A DNA stretch of 64,000 nucleotides from Colwellia sp. TT2012 (GTDB taxonomy: Bacteria > Pseudomonadota > Gammaproteobacteria > Enterobacterales > Alteromonadaceae). Under the pieces are notes generated by a model, which ran no database searches, was not told where the DNA came from, and worked only from the letters and a program-made list of their open reading frames with translations. A program made the translations under genes and the position numbers. Below are positions 5,754 through 52,543 of this stretch, one piece after another; position 1 is the first letter of the stretch, and each line of letters begins with the position of its first letter. The stretch is from NCBI RefSeq assembly GCF_001440345.1, contig NZ_LJYX01000021.1:310001-374000 (forward strand), given 5' to 3'.

Positions 5754-8435
5754 TTAAGCTAATTTGCCATGACATTGCTTATATTTCTTACCTGAGCCAC
5801 ATGGACATGGCTCATTACGACCTACGCGAGGTACTTGCTCTGGTCGACCTGGGCTTGATGCCGCTTTATGTTGAAAGTCCATGGCTATTTCTTCTGACTT
5901 TCTATGTTGCTCTTCAACCGCTTCAACATCTGACTCAGCACGAATTTGTACTTTAGACAAGATGCCGACAACGTCATACTTCAAGTTATCGAGCATTTCA
6001 GTAAACAACTGAAATGATTCACGTTTAAACTCTTGCTTAGGATTTTTTTGCGCGTGGGCACGTAAACCAATGCCTTGGCGAAGGTGATCCATAGCGGATA
6101 AATGTTCCTTCCAATGAGAATCTAAGCTCTGTAACATCACTGCTTTTTCAAACTGACGTAAAACATCTGCACCAACAGCAGCTTCTTTATCTTTATAACC
6201 TTGCTCAAAGGCAGTAATAATTTTTTCGCGTAATGTTTCTTCATGAAGATTGTCATCTTCTTTAAGCCATTTTGCGATGGGTAATTCGGTGGCAAACTCA
6301 CCTTTTAATTGCTCTTCAAGCGCCTGAATATTCCACATTTCGTCTAATGATTGTGGTGGGATATGCTGCTCAATAACACCAACAATGACATCATTGCGAA
6401 TGGCACTCACTACATCACCAATCTCTTCATTATCCAGTAACTCATTACGTTGCTCATAGATAACACCACGTTGATCATTGGCAACATCATCATATTCCAG
6501 TAACTGTTTACGCATATCAAAGTTACGACCTTCAACTTTACGCTGAGCATTTTCAATACTACGGGTCACCCAAGGATGTTCAATCGCTTCACCATGTTCC
6601 ATGCCTAATTTTCGCATCATATTAGAAATACGTTCTGAGGCAAATATCCGCATCAATGAATCTTCCATTGATAGGTAAAAACGTGTGGAGCCTTGATCAC
6701 CTTGTCGTCCTGAACGACCACGAAGCTGATTATCAATTCGTCTTGATTCATGACGTTCAGTCGCCACTATATGTAAACCACCGAGCTCAAGTACTCTGTC
6801 ATGGTCAATTTGCCACTGCGCTTTCACTTTGGCAAGCTCATCTTCACTCGGGTTAGTTAACTTAGCGATTATGGCCTCTAAATTACCACCTAGAACGATA
6901 TCGGTACCACGACCAGCCATATTGGTAGCAATAGTAACCGCGCCCTCTTTACCTGCATCGGCGACGATTTCAGCTTCTTGCTGATGGAACTTAGCATTCA
7001 GTACCTTGTGCTTAATTTTTTCTTTCTTCAAGAAATCAGAAAGGAACTCTGAAGTCTCAATGGCAATAGTACCAACAAGTACCGGTTGGCCTCGTTTCAC
7101 GCAATCTTTAATATCCGCTAAAATTGCTTCAAACTTTTCATCTTTTGTTAAGTAAATCAAATCAGCCATATCATTACGAATCATCGGTTGATTAGTAGGG
7201 ATAATAACCGTCTCTAGACCATAAATATGATTGAACTCGAACGCTTCAGTATCGGCCGTACCTGTCATACCTGACAGTTTTTGGTAAATTCTGAAGTAGT
7301 TTTGAAAGGTAATAGAAGCAAGTGTCTGGTTTTCATTTTGAATATTAACACCTTCTTTTGCTTCGATCGCTTGATGAAGACCTTCAGACCAACGACGACC
7401 ATCCATCGTACGGCCAGTGTGTTCATCAACAATCACTATTTCGTCATCTTTTAAGATATAATCGACATCTTTTTGAAAGAGCTTATGGGCACGAAGCGCC
7501 GCCATAACATGGTGTAATAAGGTGATATTAGCGGCTGAAAATAAAGTATCTCCGGCAGTTAATAGCTCTTTTTCCACCATGATCTCTTCGATATGAATTT
7601 GACCACGTTCAGTTAAATAAACTTGTTTAGCTTTTTCATCAATGGTGTAATCACCCGTGCTTTCTTCACCTTCTTTATCTTCTTCGTCTTGTTGCACTAA
7701 TGTGGGTACAACCGTATTGATAATTTTATACAGTGCTGAGCTATCTTCTGCCTGACCAGAAATAATCAGTGGCGTTCTGGCTTCATCAATTAGGATTGAA
7801 TCGACTTCATCAATAATGGCAAAATGTAGTGGTTTTTGTGCGCGTTCTAGCGACGAAAACACCATATTGTCACGTAAATAGTCAAAACCAAATTCGTTAT
7901 TGGTACCGTAAGTGATATCTGATTGATATGCAGCTTGTTTATCCTCAGTTGTCATACCAGCAACATTACAACCGACGGTTAAACCAAGAAACTCAAATAA
8001 CGGACGACACCAATCAGCATCACGGGTAGCTAGGTAATCATTGACGGTAATGACATGCACACCTTTGTTGGTTAGCGCGTTAAGATATGATGGTAAGGTT
8101 GCTGTTAACGTTTTACCTTCACCGGTACGCATTTCAGCAATTTTCCCGTCATTAAGCACCATACCGCCAATCATTTGCACATCGAAATGGCGCATACCAA
8201 AGACTCGTTTACTGGCTTCACGAACGACAGCAAAAGCTTCTGGCAATAATTGCGCTATCGATTCGCCTTGAGCGCAGCGCTCTTTAAATTCAGTGGTTTT
8301 TGCTTTTAATTCTTCATCACTTAATACTTCTAAAACAGGTTCAAGCGCATTTATTTTATCGACTTCTTTGCTCATTTGTTTTAGCAATCTATCATTTCGA
8401 CTACCAAATATTTTTGTTAACAAATTTCCAAACAT
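5754..8435 (-). CDS. secA: Protein translocase ATPase SecA
   Basis: The motor ATPase that drives preproteins through SecYEG. The 893-aa protein is near the usual 900 aa. Walker A is MRTGEGKT (Lys108), the DEAD-type Walker B is [18 protein letters not shown], and the second RecA fold carries [10 protein letters not shown] and [10 protein letters not shown]. The C-terminus ends in a zinc-binding [13 protein letters not shown] (Cys877, 879, 888, His889), used for SecB/lipid contact. The N-terminus [16 protein letters not shown] matches the canonical SecA start. No secM-like gene lies upstream. Confidence 0.98.
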
Positions 8436-44076: not shown

Positions 44077-46575
44077 TTAAAAGCTGCCACGAATGCCAAT
44101 ACTGAAATTACGACCAGGTAATGGCGCAATCTCTTTTATAAAAGACGAGTGCACCCGGGCATGTTCATTAGTTAGATTCTGCCCTTTCAAATACAAGGTT
44201 AAATCATCACCAACGCCAGCAATATAATAATTAACATGTGCATCAACCATAGTATAGCTATCTGTTGTGGTTTCTAACTCAGCAATATCTGTTTGTTCAA
44301 AGTAGTGGCTAACACTCAGTTCACTCGCAAAGTTATCCGCTTGATAATTAACAATAACACCAAGCCTCATCGGAGGAATACGCGGTAGATTACCCTTTTC
44401 GTCATTATCAACAAGCCTAGCTCGGATATAGTCGGCAATTAAGCTGGTTTTAACGGCCGATGACACTTGATAAACAAATTCAGCTTCAGCGCCATACATA
44501 TGCACATCAGCTTGCTGATAAACTAATATAGGTAAGCCTGATTCATCTTCATGGTCGTCTGCATGAGTATGTTCATGTTCTTCGACAAAAAATAGGCCAG
44601 TATTTTTCTGGTAATAATAATCATCAATACGATTATAAAATGCGCTAATAACATAACCAAAATCACCGTTAAATTTCCGTAAGGTCACATCCAGATTAAG
44701 CGATGTTTCGACCCTGGGTACTTGCTCAGCTAACTCGACCTGAATTTCATCACCTTCTTGATGTACAGCAAACATTGCGCCTACCTCAAAAGTGTTTGTG
44801 CCTATATGTGGACCAAATGAAAATAACTCGCCTGAAGAGGCGGCACGTTGTGACAGTGCCAGTGAAAACCCTAAGTTATAACCTGATTGGTAATCCCAGA
44901 CTAAACCTGCGGAAGCACTAATCGGGGTAAATGATTGCCGTTCAAATGATACTAATGTTTGATGGTGCTCATTATGTATTGGTTCATGATGTAATTCATG
45001 ACCTTCTTCAAAGCCGATCAAGCTATCATCAGCATCGATAGTGACTTGCTCTATTCTAGCGCCCAATTGCAATAATACCGGACCAAAATGTTTCTCTTCT
45101 AACCATGCCGCCGCGAACATTGCCGATTTAGCGGGTGGTGAGAAAGCCTCTTCGCCGAGAGCTTTAAAGTCTGATGCTTTATAATGAATAGTCCAGGCTC
45201 CTTGCCAACCAGAAAAATCGCGATGAAAAAGATCAATACGCGCTTCCGTACTTTTATTGCTAAAAGTTGTGCCAACTAAGCCTGACTCAATTTCTTGGTG
45301 TTGATAATCACTGTAGGCAAATTTTGTGCCGACCTTGCTAATGAAATTTTCGGCAAAATTATATTCGCCCAGCACTTGCCATCTATCTTGCTGCATTTTT
45401 GCATAAACACCGCTATCTTGGCTAGCACTCAGGGTTAACGGCTGAGTATGTTCATCAGCATGTTCCCCTTCATGGCTATGGCCAGGAATTCCGTAGTCTC
45501 TACTCATAAAACCATAAGAAAAACCGATAAAGCCATCGTCAAGTAAATAACTAGTACCGAAGGTGGCACCACTGGCGGTAGAGGCACTATTTTCGAGGCG
45601 GGCTTTCCCATGTTCTTCATCTTCACCATCAACGGCCTGATGTTCTTCTTCATGGGAGTCTGCTTCACCTGCAAGTTTATAGTCTTTCGAGTCACGCCAA
45701 AAACCATCCAAGTGAAAAGCGATATTATCTCGACCCGTTTGGATATTAATTGAGCCCTGCAGCTCATTGGAAACATCGTTATATTGTAACAAATAGTCAA
45801 TTTGATCGTCAGTACTCCTTGGTACACGTTCATCCACCACATTAACCACACCACCAATTGCACCACTGCCGTAAAATAGCGTTGCTGGACCACGTAATAC
45901 TTCTATTTGTGTTGCTGTACTTGTTTCTGTTGCTACGACGTGATCAGGACCAATACGTGAAGCATCGCCAACGTCTAAGCCATTTTGGGTAATAAGTACT
46001 CTAGGACCATCCAAGCCTCTAATAATGGGTGTACTGGCAACGGGGCCATAATAACTCGAATGAACACCCACTTCATTTTTTAGCGTCTCCCCTAAGGTTG
46101 CCGCTTGTTTCATTTTTAATTCATCGGCACTGAGCACATTAATAGGCAATGCCGACTCAATTAAAGAGCTATGTAACGGCGTAACATAGACATCAATAAT
46201 TTCCATCACAGAAGCAGACAAAACTACCTTTAGGTCAATGACGTCTTGCTCTTTAACAATAATTTGTTGATTACTATGCCCATAATTTCTAGCACTAATA
46301 TGAAGTTCAAAAACGCCTTGTTTAACGTCGGTAAAGGTAAATCGCCCTTGAGCATTGGAGCGTACTTGTTGTGTGCCATTAGCTAATTTCACTCTGGCAT
46401 TATAAATAGCTTGGCCTTGTTTATTAAGCACTACCCCTGATAGGCTCTGCGCTAAGCTGGTTTGACTAAAACATAACATTGTTGCAAATGTTGACAGTAC
46501 TCCGGTGTTAACAATTTTTTTAAGCTGGAATTTAACTTGACTATTGATACTCTTTTGATTGGCAAAAAAAGACAT
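44077..46575 (-). CDS. TonB-dependent receptor with His-rich loops (ZnuD-like)
   Basis: An outer-membrane active transporter, probably for zinc. In the 832-aa product: signal peptide ending at SLAQ (43), a carboxypeptidase-like regulatory domain (about 45-120), a plug domain (about 140-250) with PIIRGLDGPRVLI and IEVLRGPATLFYGSGAIGGVVNVVD, and a beta-barrel ending in aromatic Phe. Four predicted surface loops are rich in His and acidic residues: 308-322, 366-377, 523-538 and 665-676 (for example EEHEHTHADDHEDE). This is the hallmark of zinc receptors such as ZnuD. It lies downstream of a Zur-type site and a small Cys/His protein. Confidence 0.92.
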   Translation of the reverse strand: MSFFANQKSINSQVKFQLKKIVNTGVLSTFATMLCFSQTSLAQSLSGVVLNKQGQAIYNARVKLANGTQQVRSNAQGRFTFTDVKQGVFELHISARNYGHSNQQIIVKEQDVIDLKVVLSASVMEIIDVYVTPLHSSLIESALPINVLSADELKMKQAATLGETLKNEVGVHSSYYGPVASTPIIRGLDGPRVLITQNGLDVGDASRIGPDHVVATETSTATQIEVLRGPATLFYGSGAIGGVVNVVDERVPRSTDDQIDYLLQYNDVSNELQGSINIQTGRDNIAFHLDGFWRDSKDYKLAGEADSHEEEHQAVDGEDEEHGKARLENSASTASGATFGTSYLLDDGFIGFSYGFMSRDYGIPGHSHEGEHADEHTQPLTLSASQDSGVYAKMQQDRWQVLGEYNFAENFISKVGTKFAYSDYQHQEIESGLVGTTFSNKSTEARIDLFHRDFSGWQGAWTIHYKASDFKALGEEAFSPPAKSAMFAAAWLEEKHFGPVLLQLGARIEQVTIDADDSLIGFEEGHELHHEPIHNEHHQTLVSFERQSFTPISASAGLVWDYQSGYNLGFSLALSQRAASSGELFSFGPHIGTNTFEVGAMFAVHQEGDEIQVELAEQVPRVETSLNLDVTLRKFNGDFGYVISAFYNRIDDYYYQKNTGLFFVEEHEHTHADDHEDESGLPILVYQQADVHMYGAEAEFVYQVSSAVKTSLIADYIRARLVDNDEKGNLPRIPPMRLGVIVNYQADNFASELSVSHYFEQTDIAELETTTDSYTMVDAHVNYYIAGVGDDLTLYLKGQNLTNEHARVHSSFIKEIAPLPGRNFSIGIRGSF

Positions 46576-46615
46576 AAACTGGTTTCCGATACTTTTTTAG
46601 GTGATGCATACCACG

Positions 46616-46681
46616 CTGAGAATTTAGTTTCTCAGACAGGCAGCTAGGTGCGGGCTTAGTTACTTGCACTAAGCCCCGCAC
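46616..46681 (-). other. Two hairpins between the small Zur-linked gene and the TonB receptor
   Basis: CTGAGAA (46616-46622) pairs with TTCTCAG (46629-46635). GTGCGGGCTTAG (46648-46659) pairs with CTAAGCCCCGCAC (46669-46681) with one bulged C. No T-run follows on the coding strand. They may protect or separate the two parts of the transcript so that the genes are expressed at different levels. Confidence 0.55.
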
Positions 46682-46703
46682 AATAAAATACACGAGAAGA
46701 AAA

Positions 46704-47027
46704 TTACAGCGAGCTTGGCGGTGCTCTTAACGGCGGGATAATATAAGCCAGTGCGGCAAGCACGACACTGATAATTCGAATTTTGTTTAGTCTAGCTATG
46801 CTAGTTACTACTGGGTATAGCCGGATAGAGCTAGGTGGTGAATCTATACCTTGCTGGCATAAATGACAGTCATGTGATGCAATATTTAAAAATGCATCAA
46901 AGTCAACTTGAGTAAAATGTTCACTATGAGCAAAAAAAGTCGCACAAAAGAGCAAGAGCGTTATAACGCCCTGGCGAATTTTTCGCTTATAAATTTTAAG
47001 TTGACATTTAGCTAAGGTAAAGTTCAT
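46704..47027 (-). CDS. Small exported Cys/His protein of a zinc-regulated unit
   Basis: No named family recognised. The 107-aa product has a basic lead, a hydrophobic segment (about 20-35) ending AHS that looks like a signal peptide, then SHDCHLCQQG, a CxxC motif with two nearby His that could bind metal. It ends in a second hydrophobic stretch (about 84-97) followed by a short proline-rich tail. I chose the ATG at 47027: an upstream TTG at 47063 would place the Zur-type box inside the gene. The first gene upstream of the ZnuD-like receptor in the same direction, it may help zinc delivery, but this is inference. Confidence 0.68.
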   Translation of the reverse strand: MNFTLAKCQLKIYKRKIRQGVITLLLFCATFFAHSEHFTQVDFDAFLNIASHDCHLCQQGIDSPPSSIRLYPVVTSIARLNKIRIISVVLAALAYIIPPLRAPPSSL

Positions 47028-47063
47028 AAATGTTATAATATAACAATTTAAAGATGAACTCAA
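47028..47063 (-). promoter_or_regulatory. Zur-type operator overlapping a sigma-70 promoter
   Basis: The palindrome TGTTATAATATAACA (47031-47045), with AAA and ATTT flanks (47028-47049), closely matches the gammaproteobacterial Zur box as I recall it (GAAATGTTATAnTATAACATTTC). On the minus strand TTGAGT (47058-47063), a 17-nt spacer and TATTAT (47035-47040) form a promoter whose -10 lies inside the palindrome, so bound repressor would block it. The start site would fall at or next to the ATG at 47027. Confidence 0.85.
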
Positions 47064-48573: not shown

Positions 48574-48785
48574 CGTACATCCTGTTTTGCTCGCTCCTAG
48601 ATATCCCTATCTCCGCGAGCTACCGTACATCCTGTTTTGCTCGCTCCTAGATATCCCTATCTCCGCGAGCTACCGTACATCCTGTTTTGCTCGCTCTTAG
48701 ATATCCATATCTCCGCGAGCTACCGTACATCCTGTTTTGCTCGCTCTTAGATATCCCTATCTCCGCGAGCTACCGTACATCCTGT
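48574..48785. repeat. Four 50-bp palindromic tandem repeats plus a partial copy
   Basis: Units start at 48574, 48624, 48674 and 48724 with a period of exactly 50 bp; a 12-bp partial copy (CGTACATCCTGT) runs 48774-48785. Each unit has outer arms GCTCGC and GCGAGC around an inner AGATA/TATCT pair, so each can form a hairpin. Copies 1 and 2 are identical; copies 3 and 4 differ at one or two bases, and in copy 3 the change makes the inner stem longer (AGATAT/ATATCT). It fills the gap between the convergent TraF-like and AstE-family genes and could act as a REP-like terminator or protein-binding array. Confidence 0.9.
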
Positions 48786-48791
48786 ACATAA

Positions 48792-49922
48792 TTAAAGTTC
48801 GAAATAATGACAAAGCACCTTATACAACTCAGTACCTTGATTAACGCTAGCAGAAGCAAAATGTAAAATAGGGATAACCTCTTGCTCAAGCGACACATAA
48901 TGCAATGCCTCACCATCACCATAGTTATCCATACGCAGAATTCGTACTAAAGGCTCGCCGGCAGCTAAGGGTTTGCCAAACTCAGCAAGGTAATCGACCA
49001 TACCGCCCATAGGAGAATATAAGGCTTTATAATCTTTCAAGTAACCCGCGTATCGAGTCATTTTTTGTGGCTGATATTGCTTATTATCAATAACACCCTG
49101 ATATTGTAAATAAGATAAAATACTTAAGGCATCTTGCTTGGCGACATCTAAGTCTATTTGCTCTTGCGAGCCCAATTCGACGGTGAAACTTTCCTTGTTA
49201 AAAGCCCCTTGCCCCATAGTAAATTTTCGACCCAAGTTTTCATAGGCCTGCTGTAAACTCCACCAAGGACAAAATGTCGCCTCATCCATAGCGCCATCAA
49301 AATCATTTGGAATGAGTAAGGTATGCTCAATATCAAAATATTTAGCGCTCTCTTGTGCATACTCAGGGCAATATAAATGTTTACTGGAAATTGGACCTGT
49401 GTGTAAGTCCAAAACTATATCAGCTTGGTGCGCTAGGCGCTGCAATTGATAAGCAATGCGTTGTCCTGTCGTTAGACCCCAAGAGTTGTGCGCTAACTTA
49501 GTTTCAACTTCACTAAGCAATAGTTGCTGAAATTTATCTTTTATTTCCTCTTCACTAGCATCTAAGTACTGTTGCGCAAAAGGCTCGATAACACTTTCAT
49601 CAAAATGGTACATCCTATTCCAGTTTACTCCGGTAATAGGATCAAACCGCCCTAAAGTATACTCACCATTTTTGTGATTACAGGCAACGGGATTTGCATA
49701 AGGTACTAAGGTAATATTACCTTGCAAGTTACAGTGCTGTAGTAGTTCCAATAATTGGAAAATAACAGCATTACCTTGCACTTCCGCGCCATGCATATTT
49801 GCCTGTATATAGACACTGGCAGCCGCATTATTTTCACCTTTAAAGGCATAAACAGGCACAGTTAGTTTAGCGCCACTGGCCATTTCGCCCACTGACATAA
49901 CTTCTTTGCTAAATTTATTCAT
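48792..49922 (-). CDS. AstE/AspA-family (M14-like) deacylase
   Basis: A zinc-dependent carboxypeptidase-fold enzyme of the succinylglutamate desuccinylase/aspartoacylase family. In the 376-aa product the zinc site reads HGAEVQGN (His and Glu) and DLHTG (His), and the catalytic Glu fits VELGSQ. The family removes succinyl or acetyl groups from amino acids. I chose the ATG at 49922, which has GAGGG 6 bp upstream, over the GTG one codon earlier. It is the third gene after a lysine riboswitch, following a succinyltransferase-like and a decarboxylase-like gene, so an N-succinylated intermediate is a reasonable substrate guess; here it could replace DapE. Confidence 0.85.
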   Translation of the reverse strand: MNKFSKEVMSVGEMASGAKLTVPVYAFKGENNAAASVYIQANMHGAEVQGNAVIFQLLELLQHCNLQGNITLVPYANPVACNHKNGEYTLGRFDPITGVNWNRMYHFDESVIEPFAQQYLDASEEEIKDKFQQLLLSEVETKLAHNSWGLTTGQRIAYQLQRLAHQADIVLDLHTGPISSKHLYCPEYAQESAKYFDIEHTLLIPNDFDGAMDEATFCPWWSLQQAYENLGRKFTMGQGAFNKESFTVELGSQEQIDLDVAKQDALSILSYLQYQGVIDNKQYQPQKMTRYAGYLKDYKALYSPMGGMVDYLAEFGKPLAAGEPLVRILRMDNYGDGEALHYVSLEQEVIPILHFASASVNQGTELYKVLCHYFEL

Positions 49923-49944
49923 CACATTCCCTCAATTATTTTAA

Positions 49945-51195
49945 CTATGCCAAATAAGATGAAGCTGGCTGAGCCGCTCTCACTTGAGTAAGAATGCCAT
50001 CTTGATAAACATACTCAGCCGCTAATTCATGACATAAAAAAAATGGCATACTTTCAGTAAAGCCATAAGCGCCGCAATAACCAAACACTAATTTATCGCC
50101 AACATCGATATCAGCAGGTAAATGTAAATACCCAAGTTTATCCATGCTAGTACATAAAGGACCATGTAGGTCAAAACCCTGCATAGTAGTCTTTTCAGCA
50201 GAAAAACCTGCGCGCAATATTTGTACCGGAAAGGTTTGTTCGGTGATTGCTGGGCGTAGTAAATGATTTATACCTGCGGCTAACACCAGCTGTTCTTGCT
50301 CATAATTCATTTTTCTATCCACTACCGGTACCACATAATAACCACACTCGGCCACAGCAAATCGCCCTAACTCCAGCCACAACTCTTTAACACCTGATTT
50401 TGCTTTGATAACGGCCAAGTCAGCAATAATTCGCGGCCAAGACAACGTTTGCCCTACCCCTAAATAATCAATGCCTAAACCACCACCTAAATCGAGTATA
50501 TCGAGTGTCATACCGATGCGGTTAGCTAAGTCAGTCAACGGGCTTATCATTTGCGACCATAATGAAAACATTTTTTCATTACTGAGCATATTGCCCCATT
50601 GAAAAATATGTAAGCCACAAATTGCCAACGCAGGATAGCTATCTACATGAATAGTTTGCCACTCAGACACGGATAGACCAAACGGCGTTAAGCTATTACC
50701 ACCGAGTGGGTTTTTCTCGCCTTCATGCCATTGCAGCTGTACTCTAAGTAGTACTTTTGGCTTATCAGCATCACCTGATGATAACTCTTGTTCAAGCACT
50801 ACTTCATTAAGCCAAGTAAGTTGGTTTAAACTTTCTACCACAAAAGTACGTACACCTTGCTTAACAAATGATGCTAGCTGTTTTTTAGATTTTGCTGGTC
50901 CGGTATTTAGCACTCGACTTGGATCTACGCCCTGTGCGAGTACCTGCGTTAATTCACCGGCGCTGGCGACATCAAAGTCAAAGCCAGCATTGTCTAGAGT
51001 TTGAATTATTTTTGATAGCGGATTAGCTTTAACGGCAAACCATAATTTAATAACATCTTGCTGCTGTAAACTTGCTAAATGTGCCTTCAGTGCATCAAGT
51101 TGATAAACAAAATAGCCTTGTTCGTCTTCAGGCGAGACATGCTCAAGCAAGGCGTTTTCAATCGTGGTGTCAAACCAAGTGGCTTTAGTCATCAT
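49945..51195 (-). CDS. Fold-type III PLP decarboxylase, LysA-like but atypical
   Basis: A PLP decarboxylase of the alanine-racemase fold. In the 416-aa product the PLP lysine is Lys56 (WFAVKANP), the phosphate loop is DLGGGLGIDYLG (237-239), and the substrate-side elements are GPLCTSMDKLG (Cys348, Asp352) and GAYGFTES. It differs from diaminopimelate decarboxylase: the HIGSQ motif is HIFQWGN, and the CES motif is CTS. These motifs look closer to amino-acid decarboxylases of secondary metabolism. Its true substrate is uncertain: meso-DAP, or a related acylated amino acid. It lies 22 bp before the AstE-family gene. Confidence 0.82.
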   Translation of the reverse strand: MMTKATWFDTTIENALLEHVSPEDEQGYFVYQLDALKAHLASLQQQDVIKLWFAVKANPLSKIIQTLDNAGFDFDVASAGELTQVLAQGVDPSRVLNTGPAKSKKQLASFVKQGVRTFVVESLNQLTWLNEVVLEQELSSGDADKPKVLLRVQLQWHEGEKNPLGGNSLTPFGLSVSEWQTIHVDSYPALAICGLHIFQWGNMLSNEKMFSLWSQMISPLTDLANRIGMTLDILDLGGGLGIDYLGVGQTLSWPRIIADLAVIKAKSGVKELWLELGRFAVAECGYYVVPVVDRKMNYEQEQLVLAAGINHLLRPAITEQTFPVQILRAGFSAEKTTMQGFDLHGPLCTSMDKLGYLHLPADIDVGDKLVFGYCGAYGFTESMPFFLCHELAAEYVYQDGILTQVRAAQPASSYLA

Positions 51196-51272
51196 ATTTT
51201 TCTTTAATCTTAAAACTCAATCGAGTTAGTAAATTAGTTAATCTAGTGAATAGATTAATCAATCAGCTTTAA

Positions 51273-51356
51273 GCTGTATGGTTCAAGCTAAAGAAAAAAG
51301 CACGGAATTGATGACTATCAATGAGTACTTTTGACGCATAGATTGGACCATACAGC
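51273..51356 (-). other. Long inverted repeat between the DapD-like and LysA-like genes
   Basis: GCTGTATGGTTCAA (51273-51286) pairs with TTGGACCATACAGC (51343-51356) with one G-U type mismatch; flanking TTAATCA-like sequences extend the pairing. The 56-nt loop holds a second hairpin, ATTGAT/ATCAAT (51307-51322). It takes up much of the 175-nt gap inside the operon. It may be a processing site, a weak attenuator, or the remnant of a small inverted-repeat element. Confidence 0.6.
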
Positions 51357-51370
51357 GACAAGATGATTAA

Positions 51371-52120
51371 TTAACGCAGAATTGATTCTAATTCAAGTGA
51401 TGCATCGCTTTGTTCATCACGATACTTAACAATAAGTGCACAGGCCATGCTTAAACCTAGCGCTTTTGCCCACTCACCTTTGACAGGTCGGGTACCAGGA
51501 ACAACCACAGCACGTTCTGGTATTTCAGCGCCTTTTTCTCGCATAACTTGGTTTACACAATCATAAACAGGTACAGATTTAGAAAGAGATACACCAGGTG
51601 CTAACACCGCACCTTTTTTAACCACGATACCTTCAACGACAACAACACCTGCACTCAAAAAGGCATCATCTTCAATAATGACTGGACTAGCCCCAATAGG
51701 CTCTAAGACACCACCTATTTGCACCGCAGCTGAGATGTGAACATTTTTCCCCACCTGCGCACATGAACCAATTAAAGCATGGCTATCTACCATAGTACCG
51801 GTATCAACATAGGCACCAACATTGATGTATGCTGGTGGCATGATGATTACACCTTCAGCAACATAGGCTCCGGCACGTACTGATGAGCCACCAGGTACCA
51901 AACGAACACCATCTTCTGGTGTAAACTGACGAGCGGGTAAGTTATGTTTATCAACAAACCCTTGATAATTACCATTTAAAGCAACATTTTCACCGGCTTT
52001 AAATGCGGCTAAAATGCCTTGTTTTACTTCAACATTGACATGCCAATTACCGGCTTCATCTTGGTTTGCCGCTCGTAAACTACCTGATTCCAACTGTGCT
52101 AAAACATCTTGCCAGTTCAT
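51371..52120 (-). CDS. DapD-like N-succinyltransferase
   Basis: A left-handed beta-helix acyltransferase of the tetrahydrodipicolinate N-succinyltransferase family. The 249-aa product is shorter than E. coli DapD (274 aa), mainly in the N-terminal part. The conserved core is clear: YINVGAYVDTGTMVDSHALI, GSCAQVGKNVHISAAVQIGG, and LEPIGASPVIIEDDAFLSAG. From memory, this core is closer to the Bacteroidota and TabB type than to the enterobacterial one; I could not check this. It is the first gene after the lysine riboswitch (GGAG lies 7 bp before the ATG). Whether a second, canonical dapD exists lies outside the window. Confidence 0.88.
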   Translation of the reverse strand: MNWQDVLAQLESGSLRAANQDEAGNWHVNVEVKQGILAAFKAGENVALNGNYQGFVDKHNLPARQFTPEDGVRLVPGGSSVRAGAYVAEGVIIMPPAYINVGAYVDTGTMVDSHALIGSCAQVGKNVHISAAVQIGGVLEPIGASPVIIEDDAFLSAGVVVVEGIVVKKGAVLAPGVSLSKSVPVYDCVNQVMREKGAEIPERAVVVPGTRPVKGEWAKALGLSMACALIVKYRDEQSDASLELESILR

Positions 52121-52266
52121 TTTTCACTCCGCTTATCTGATAAAAAGTCTATAGAAAATAATGTATACCTAGTGTTATTACGGACATGGTTAAACATGCT
52201 TAATTAATAAAGCTAAATACATTGTGCGGAGTACTGGGCAATTACAAAGAAGAGCATAACATCAGC

Positions 52267-52309
52267 GGGGCTGGCATTTTGGCTAATATGCAAAGGCCAG
52301 AAGCTCCCC
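52267..52309 (-). promoter_or_regulatory. Alternative hairpin (expression platform) of the lysine riboswitch
   Basis: On the minus strand GGGG-AGCTT-CTGGC (from 52309 to 52296) can pair with GCCAGCCCC (52275-52267), leaving AGCTT as a bulge. The 5' arm contains the 3' strand of aptamer stem P1, so this hairpin and P1 exclude each other. That is the logic of a riboswitch expression platform. No T-run follows, so whether it acts at transcription or translation is open. Confidence 0.6.
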
Positions 52310-52543
52310 ACTTAAACAACCAATATGGTTATGGTTCAAAGTGACAGTTGTTGGGATTCAGCCCACTACTTTATAAGGTATAAAGTAAACAACCGATAAA
52401 CAGCCAATCAAATAGCCCTCTATCTCGGCGTTAATCCCCCTCATTACCCTCTACAGAGTTTGATCTCTGTTTTTGACTGTATTAAAAAAACCATACAAAC
52501 AAAACAACGGTAATTACCTGGTTAACGCTCCTCTTCTGGCCCT
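52295..52543 (-). ncRNA. Lysine riboswitch (L-box) aptamer
   Basis: On the minus strand P1 is GGCCAGAAG paired with CTTCTGGCC (52303-52295), closing a 249-nt aptamer. Core elements match the E. coli lysC switch as I recall it: CCAGAAGAGG at the start, AGGGGG then TTAACGCCGAGATAG (52441-52420), GGGCTGAATCCC (52364-52353), GTCACTT (52345-52339), and GTGGGGAGC before P1 closes. An ACTTTAT/ATAAAGT hairpin (52368-52386) fits P4. The P2 region is longer than in E. coli. It controls the DapD-like gene 175 nt downstream. Confidence 0.92.

Follow-up and report, generated by a model that had tools for sequence, protein, structure and literature searches.

A 64,000-nucleotide stretch of Colwellia sp. 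TT2012 (contig NZ_LJYX01000021.1, positions 310,001 to 374,000; the whole stretch is hereafter the window) was analyzed for a minus-strand operon in which a lysine riboswitch precedes three genes designated dapD*, lysA* and astE*, the star denoting that each is not the canonical enzyme. The riboswitch aptamer (52293..52543, minus strand) matched RF00168 over the full model (1-182) at 64.7 bits (E 1.3e-14) and thus belongs to this family, for which the gathering score is 30 bits. Downstream of it, three minus-strand open reading frames (ORFs) were found in the order dapD* (51371..52120, 249 amino acids), a paralogue of tetrahydrodipicolinate N-acyl(succinyl)transferase; lysA* (49945..51195, 416 amino acids), a fold-III pyridoxal 5'-phosphate (PLP) decarboxylase (PF02784/PF00278) proposed to act on N-succinyl-LL-diaminopimelate (N-succinyl-LL-DAP); and astE* (48792..49925, 377 amino acids), a zinc deacylase of the AstE/AspA family (PF24827) proposed to desuccinylate N2-succinyl-L-lysine. 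The original prediction for this DNA had described a lysine aptamer before three co-directional genes of DapD-like, LysA-fold and AstE/AspA type; the RF00168 match and the three ORFs agree with this description, and the family names were backed by profile searches.

Canonical counterparts were detected elsewhere in the same genome, each above its profile cut-off: DapD (C1:972128, TIGR00965, 468.1 bits, cut-off 375.4), LysA (C1:689300, TIGR01048, 488.8 bits, cut-off 297.9), DapE (C103:189420, TIGR01246, 536.8 bits, cut-off 361.8) and AstE (C1:63925, TIGR03242, 451.4 bits, cut-off 305.65; the only TIGR03242 match of the genome). Thus, the operon is an additional set of genes and replaces nothing. 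The earlier statement that DapE and DapC are lacking held for the operon, which has neither dapC nor dapE, but not for the genome. DapD* passed NF008808 (299.9 bits, cut-off 204) and failed TIGR00965 (196.4 bits), shared 41% identity with the canonical DapD of the genome, and reads sAGvv where canonical DapD reads GARSE. The acyl group that it adds is proposed to be succinyl. The catalytic domain of AstE* matched PF24827 at 100.4 bits (cut-off 25), and TIGR03242, the profile of the arginine-pathway AstE, did not match AstE* at E 1e-3. A role of AstE* as a missing desuccinylase of the arginine pathway was rejected in view of the separate canonical AstE and the lack of an AstB match at E 1e-20 in the genome. 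By fold, the closest named structure was CphZ (8ein, 8eip; 21% identity), a beta-Asp-Arg hydrolase according to its PDB title, in which E251, the glutamate mutated in 8eip (the E251A entry has Ala there), corresponds to E250 of AstE*.

LysA* scored 167.2 bits against the TIGR01048 cut-off of 297.9. In a phylogenetic tree, 15 LysA* rows formed their own clade outside 13 canonical LysA rows with support of 100/100, in a sample where all canonical rows came from the family of the window, only three acyl-type reference rows were present and some branches were long. The reference group of BtrK, L006 and L198 had support of 76/43 with its three rows only, and LysA* stood as a branch of its own. The doubt raised earlier over the identity of the decarboxylase was well placed, as was the remark that its HIGSQ and CES motifs are missing: HIFQWGN replaces HIGSQ, and CTS is found where the canonical rows compared have CET.

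An alignment of 83 LysA* with 31 canonical LysA sequences was used to compare the pocket residues; one LysA* sequence, from locus L173, ends before the Arg314-Thr349 region. The PLP lysine, Glu275 and Arg278 (codon 50362..50364, minus strand) were invariant in 83/83, and Arg314 (50254..50256, minus), Thr318, Cys348, Thr349 (50149..50151, minus) and Tyr377 were found in all 82 that reach these columns. In canonical LysA, columns 278, 314, 318, 348 and 349 are Arg, Arg, Tyr, Cys and Glu (31 rows; Arg278, Arg314 and Glu349 in 31/31). Arg278 corresponds to Arg249 of Thermotoga LysA by motif and Arg314 to Arg285 by motif and spacing, and Thr349 takes the place of the distal-amine-binding glutamate. 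In the Thermotoga enzyme, as described in excerpts of PMC8277567, the two arginines bind the distal carboxylate and Glu315 the distal amine, and an E315T exchange abolishes most DAP activity and leads to a preference for 2-aminopimelate, which has no distal amine. Since both arginines are retained and the glutamate is replaced by threonine, LysA* seems adapted to a substrate that carries a distal carboxylate but no free distal amine. Judged from these residues, the pocket would fit an acylated substrate such as N-succinyl-DAP, the product of DapD and an aminotransferase. The best PDB sequence match of LysA* was SbnH, which like BtrK, L006, L198 and all 15 LysA* tree rows has threonine after the catalytic-site cysteine (CT motif); BtrK, L006 and L198 carry Ala instead of Arg314. 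The LysA-fold proteins of L006 (G000 C156:222995) and L198, which have the CT motif, are each encoded directly behind an acyl-CoA-ligase-like gene. At L173 (genome G163), the lysA* frame (6513-7463, minus strand) is shortened to 316 amino acids and is surrounded by dapD*, a dapA-like frame, astE* and a riboswitch; it is possibly a decaying copy.

The conservation of the unit was examined in three samples. When named genomes were scanned with LysA*, 149 stretches were confirmed, and the best 80 loci (Colwellia, Thalassotalea, Pseudoalteromonas and kin) were kept. By tblastn, dapD*, lysA* and an astE-like match were found in the same order and on the same strand in 80/80 kept loci, with complete ORFs in 78; L017 and L021 were cut by contig ends, and the astE* piece of L021 was only 48% like astE*. 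A dapA gene was just upstream in 58 of the 80 loci and absent from the window and its nearest kin. Among 295 genomes of the family, from 52 genera, dapD* (E 1e-70) and lysA* (E 1e-45) were found in exactly the same 82 genomes from 13 genera, and astE* followed lysA* in every one of these, with gaps between matched stretches of -4 to 430 and 8 to 396 bases. The recurrence of this order in all 82 genomes with lysA* indicates that the arrangement is not due to chance. The original prediction had held that the operon would be ordinary, or its order incidental, should the decarboxylase fall within the LysA clade and linkage be lacking; instead, a separate clade and a conserved linkage were found. 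Two small genomes of the family (G151 and G265), both 99% complete, lacked lysA* and, judged by best E-value, any LysA above the cut-off; they are candidates for lysine auxotrophy or for another route.

In an order-wide sample of 222 genomes, which overlaps in genomes with the 295, LysA* was matched (E 1e-40) in 15. The match in G300 (L198) was set aside as a different, ligase-linked enzyme of 32% identity, and the remaining 14 belonged to the family of the window (five), to family f16 (eight) and to family f4 (one). All eight f16 loci had the order riboswitch-lysC-dapA-dapD*; in seven of them full lysA* and astE* came next, and in the eighth the contig ended inside lysA*. LysC scored as lysine-sensitive aspartokinase 3 in 8/8, and dapA was profile-tested at one locus (L193) and recognized by BLAST in all eight. 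The f4 locus (L197) had the order dapB-dapD*-lysA*-astE*, with a DapB slightly below its NCBIfam cut-off and above both Pfam cut-offs; identity to astE* was just 34% there. If the bypass of DAP proposed below is right, the f16 and f4 units together cover the lysine pathway except for Asd and the aminotransferase.

The aptamer was likewise conserved, being present in 30 of the 32 loci scanned among the 80 and in 8/8 loci of f16. No lysine aptamer was detected upstream of dapD* in two Colwellia loci with the operon (L024, negative also at E 0.1, and L026), and the scan found none at L197. A further lysine riboswitch of the TT2012 genome is located on contig C177. A scan for terminators gave four sites, each on the plus strand, compared to an expectation of 3.6. 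A translational switch through an anti-Shine-Dalgarno element was also considered, as ACTCCGC of the window can pair with GCGGAGT, and was rejected: the exact pair is kept in only 2 of the 12 sequences checked (the window and L015). Lysine binding presumably represses the unit.

We suggest, with somewhat better than even confidence and on the strength of sequence comparisons, that the unit is a branch repressed by lysine and devoted to its synthesis, in which free LL-DAP, meso-DAP, DapE, DapF and canonical LysA are bypassed. By this scheme, DapD* would succinylate tetrahydrodipicolinate, and a shared ArgD/DapC-type aminotransferase, encoded outside the operon, would form N-succinyl-LL-DAP. LysA* would then decarboxylate the free L-amino-acid end of this compound to N2-succinyl-L-lysine, from which AstE* would strip succinate to yield L-lysine, and L-lysine would close the riboswitch. 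N-succinyl-LL-DAP is already made by E. coli K-12, through its own DapD and ArgD. It is slightly more likely than not that the unit represents a further natural lysine route, in which the intermediate is decarboxylated while still succinylated and lysine is formed without DAP; LysA* would then act as N-succinyl-DAP decarboxylase, and AstE* would be dedicated to the desuccinylation of N2-succinyl-lysine. With a pocket suited to an acylated substrate, the deacylase would probably act last, on succinyl-lysine; if decarboxylation does precede desuccinylation, the order of reactions is that of the genes. The strongest support for this branch comes from the larger lysine operons of relatives and from the pocket, in which Glu is invariably exchanged for Thr while both arginines remain.

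Several observations weigh against such a branch, the strongest being that canonical LysA is almost always retained and that astE* can survive when its partners are absent. A natural loss of the canonical enzyme, which would have been proof of replacement, was sought and not found, as 81 of the 82 lysA* genomes keep it, and astE* persists in 12 genomes that have neither dapD* nor lysA*. Caution is also needed over stereochemistry: the E315T variant of Thermotoga LysA is still D-preferring (PMC8277567, in excerpt), and the proposed LysA* substrate has an L centre. The main rival is a DapE-like role of AstE*, by which the unit would be a second, ordinary succinylase branch: DapD* succinylates, AstE* serves as an alternative DapE on N-succinyl-LL-DAP, a shared DapF carries out the epimerization, and LysA* decarboxylates DAP despite its altered pocket. 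Every step of this has precedent in the respective families; of six genomes inspected that lack dapD* and lysA*, four still have astE* behind riboswitch-dapA, where a DapE-like role would make sense; and most Thermotoga Glu315 mutants retained some DAP activity according to the same excerpts. We nevertheless regard this explanation as unlikely, as the amine-binding glutamate is Thr in all 82 LysA* that reach the site, and the same exchange deprived the Thermotoga enzyme of most DAP activity; LysA* is placed outside the canonical clade; full DapE and LysA are already present in the genome; and lysA* precedes astE*. The first of two readings in the original prediction, a compact lysine branch in which an AstE-family enzyme replaces DapE, is thus supported as a lysine branch, to which relatives add lysC, dapA or dapB, and is disfavored as to the replacement, given the full DapE elsewhere and a decarboxylase pocket that fits an acylated substrate.

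The second of these readings, that the unit diverts tetrahydrodipicolinate to another amine or amino acid by analogy with TabA and TabB of tabtoxin synthesis, was unsupported by any neighborhood examined. Decarboxylases of acyl or carrier type with named substrates (SbnH, BtrK, FigC) do serve specialized products, and the canonical lysine genes are retained; however, no ligase, oxygenase, export or resistance gene was found within the unit in these neighborhoods, and relatives add only the three lysine genes above, mostly under a lysine riboswitch, so that we consider such a side product very improbable. It is also conceivable that dapD* and lysA* form a functional pair, with AstE* a general N-alpha-acyl or isoaspartyl amino-acid hydrolase drawn into the operon. 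An AstE* member was found at E 1e-20 in 173 of the 295 family genomes compared to 82 with lysA*, AstE-like proteins of 46-50% identity were encoded apart from lysine genes in eight of the nine loci inspected, as judged from the frames displayed around them, and CphZ is the closest named fold match. By contrast, astE* follows lysA* in 82/82 family genomes, seven f16 loci and f4, and the acyl group added by DapD* must come off to yield lysine; a general hydrolase is thus a most doubtful explanation. At the ninth of these loci (L168, genome G224), astE* is lost and riboswitch-dapA is kept 2.8 kb from an AstE of the 47% type, whose neighbors resemble the genes flanking astE* in a congener (L161).

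LysA acting on meso-DAP is the common last step of the known DAP-type lysine routes (excerpts of PMC8277567), so that lysine for protein is coupled to DAP for the cell wall. If the proposed branch is real, it would leave one step after the aminotransferase and undo this coupling, would explain why it is safe for a lysine riboswitch to repress a whole biosynthetic unit, the cell wall still being supplied with DAP, would add two enzyme activities, and would correct the label 'diaminopimelate decarboxylase' given to LysA* proteins by some sources. In open-licence PMC full text, no title or start of an abstract was found to propose decarboxylation of N-succinyl-DAP for lysine, no description of the N-succinyl-DAP decarboxylase and dedicated N2-succinyl-lysine desuccinylase activities was found, and 'succinyllysine desuccinylase' appeared only in papers unrelated by title. 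Neither there nor in the excerpted text of PMC7311316, PMC5584792, PMC12925634, PMC8277567, PMC7857480 and PMC3281039 was any mention found of the broader distribution, of the enzymes being non-canonical or of the chemistry proposed here.

Elsewhere in the window, a 50-base tandem repeat of 4.2 copies (98% matches) lies directly downstream of astE* (48574-48785). At 44077-47063 (minus strand), a TonB-dependent receptor with histidine-rich stretches adjoins a 119-amino-acid ORF with a CHLCQ motif, for which no Pfam match was found at E 0.001.

Compared to known systems, the unit shares with the succinylase branch (DapD-DapC-DapE-DapF-LysA) its precursor, a DapD-family succinyltransferase, lysine riboswitch control and, in relatives, lysC, dapA or dapB as partners; it differs in having no dapE or dapF, in a decarboxylase outside the LysA clade and in the proposed decarboxylation ahead of desuccinylation. 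LysA* resembles LysA (TIGR01048) in fold, PLP lysine, GGG, ELGR, Cys348, Tyr377 and both distal-carboxylate arginines, and is unlike it in the Thr for the amine-binding Glu, the Thr for the Tyr of RPxxY, the HIFQWGN loop, the score below cut-off and the separate clade. SbnH, FigC, AcsE and BtrK are DAP decarboxylase-related decarboxylases of citrylated or carrier-bound L-amino acids, and SbnH and BtrK are grouped with FigC/FslC, AcsE and MccE (excerpts of PMC7857480). With SbnH and BtrK, LysA* shares the CT motif, in which Thr replaces Glu, and with BtrK, L006 and L198 a longer H[ILV][FY]xxG loop, whereas it retains Arg314 and has N-succinyl-DAP as proposed substrate. AstE* has LGRFD..TG.N.NR and the Glu of CphZ; however, identity is low, and CphZ degrades cyanophycin dipeptides while AstE* is encoded in a biosynthetic operon. 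In its excerpted text, PMC5584792 lists from genome annotation a Pseudoalteromonas riboswitch-dapA-dapD-lysA-hypothetical1-hypothetical2 operon and, for Colwellia psychrerythraea, a riboswitch ahead of dapD, and treats both as ordinary lysine genes, with the former arising within Pseudoalteromonas. This Pseudoalteromonas operon is probably the same as that described here, the gene after lysA* being astE* in the Pseudoalteromonas loci that we examined; unlike in that account, the operon is found here in at least three families and encodes non-canonical enzymes.

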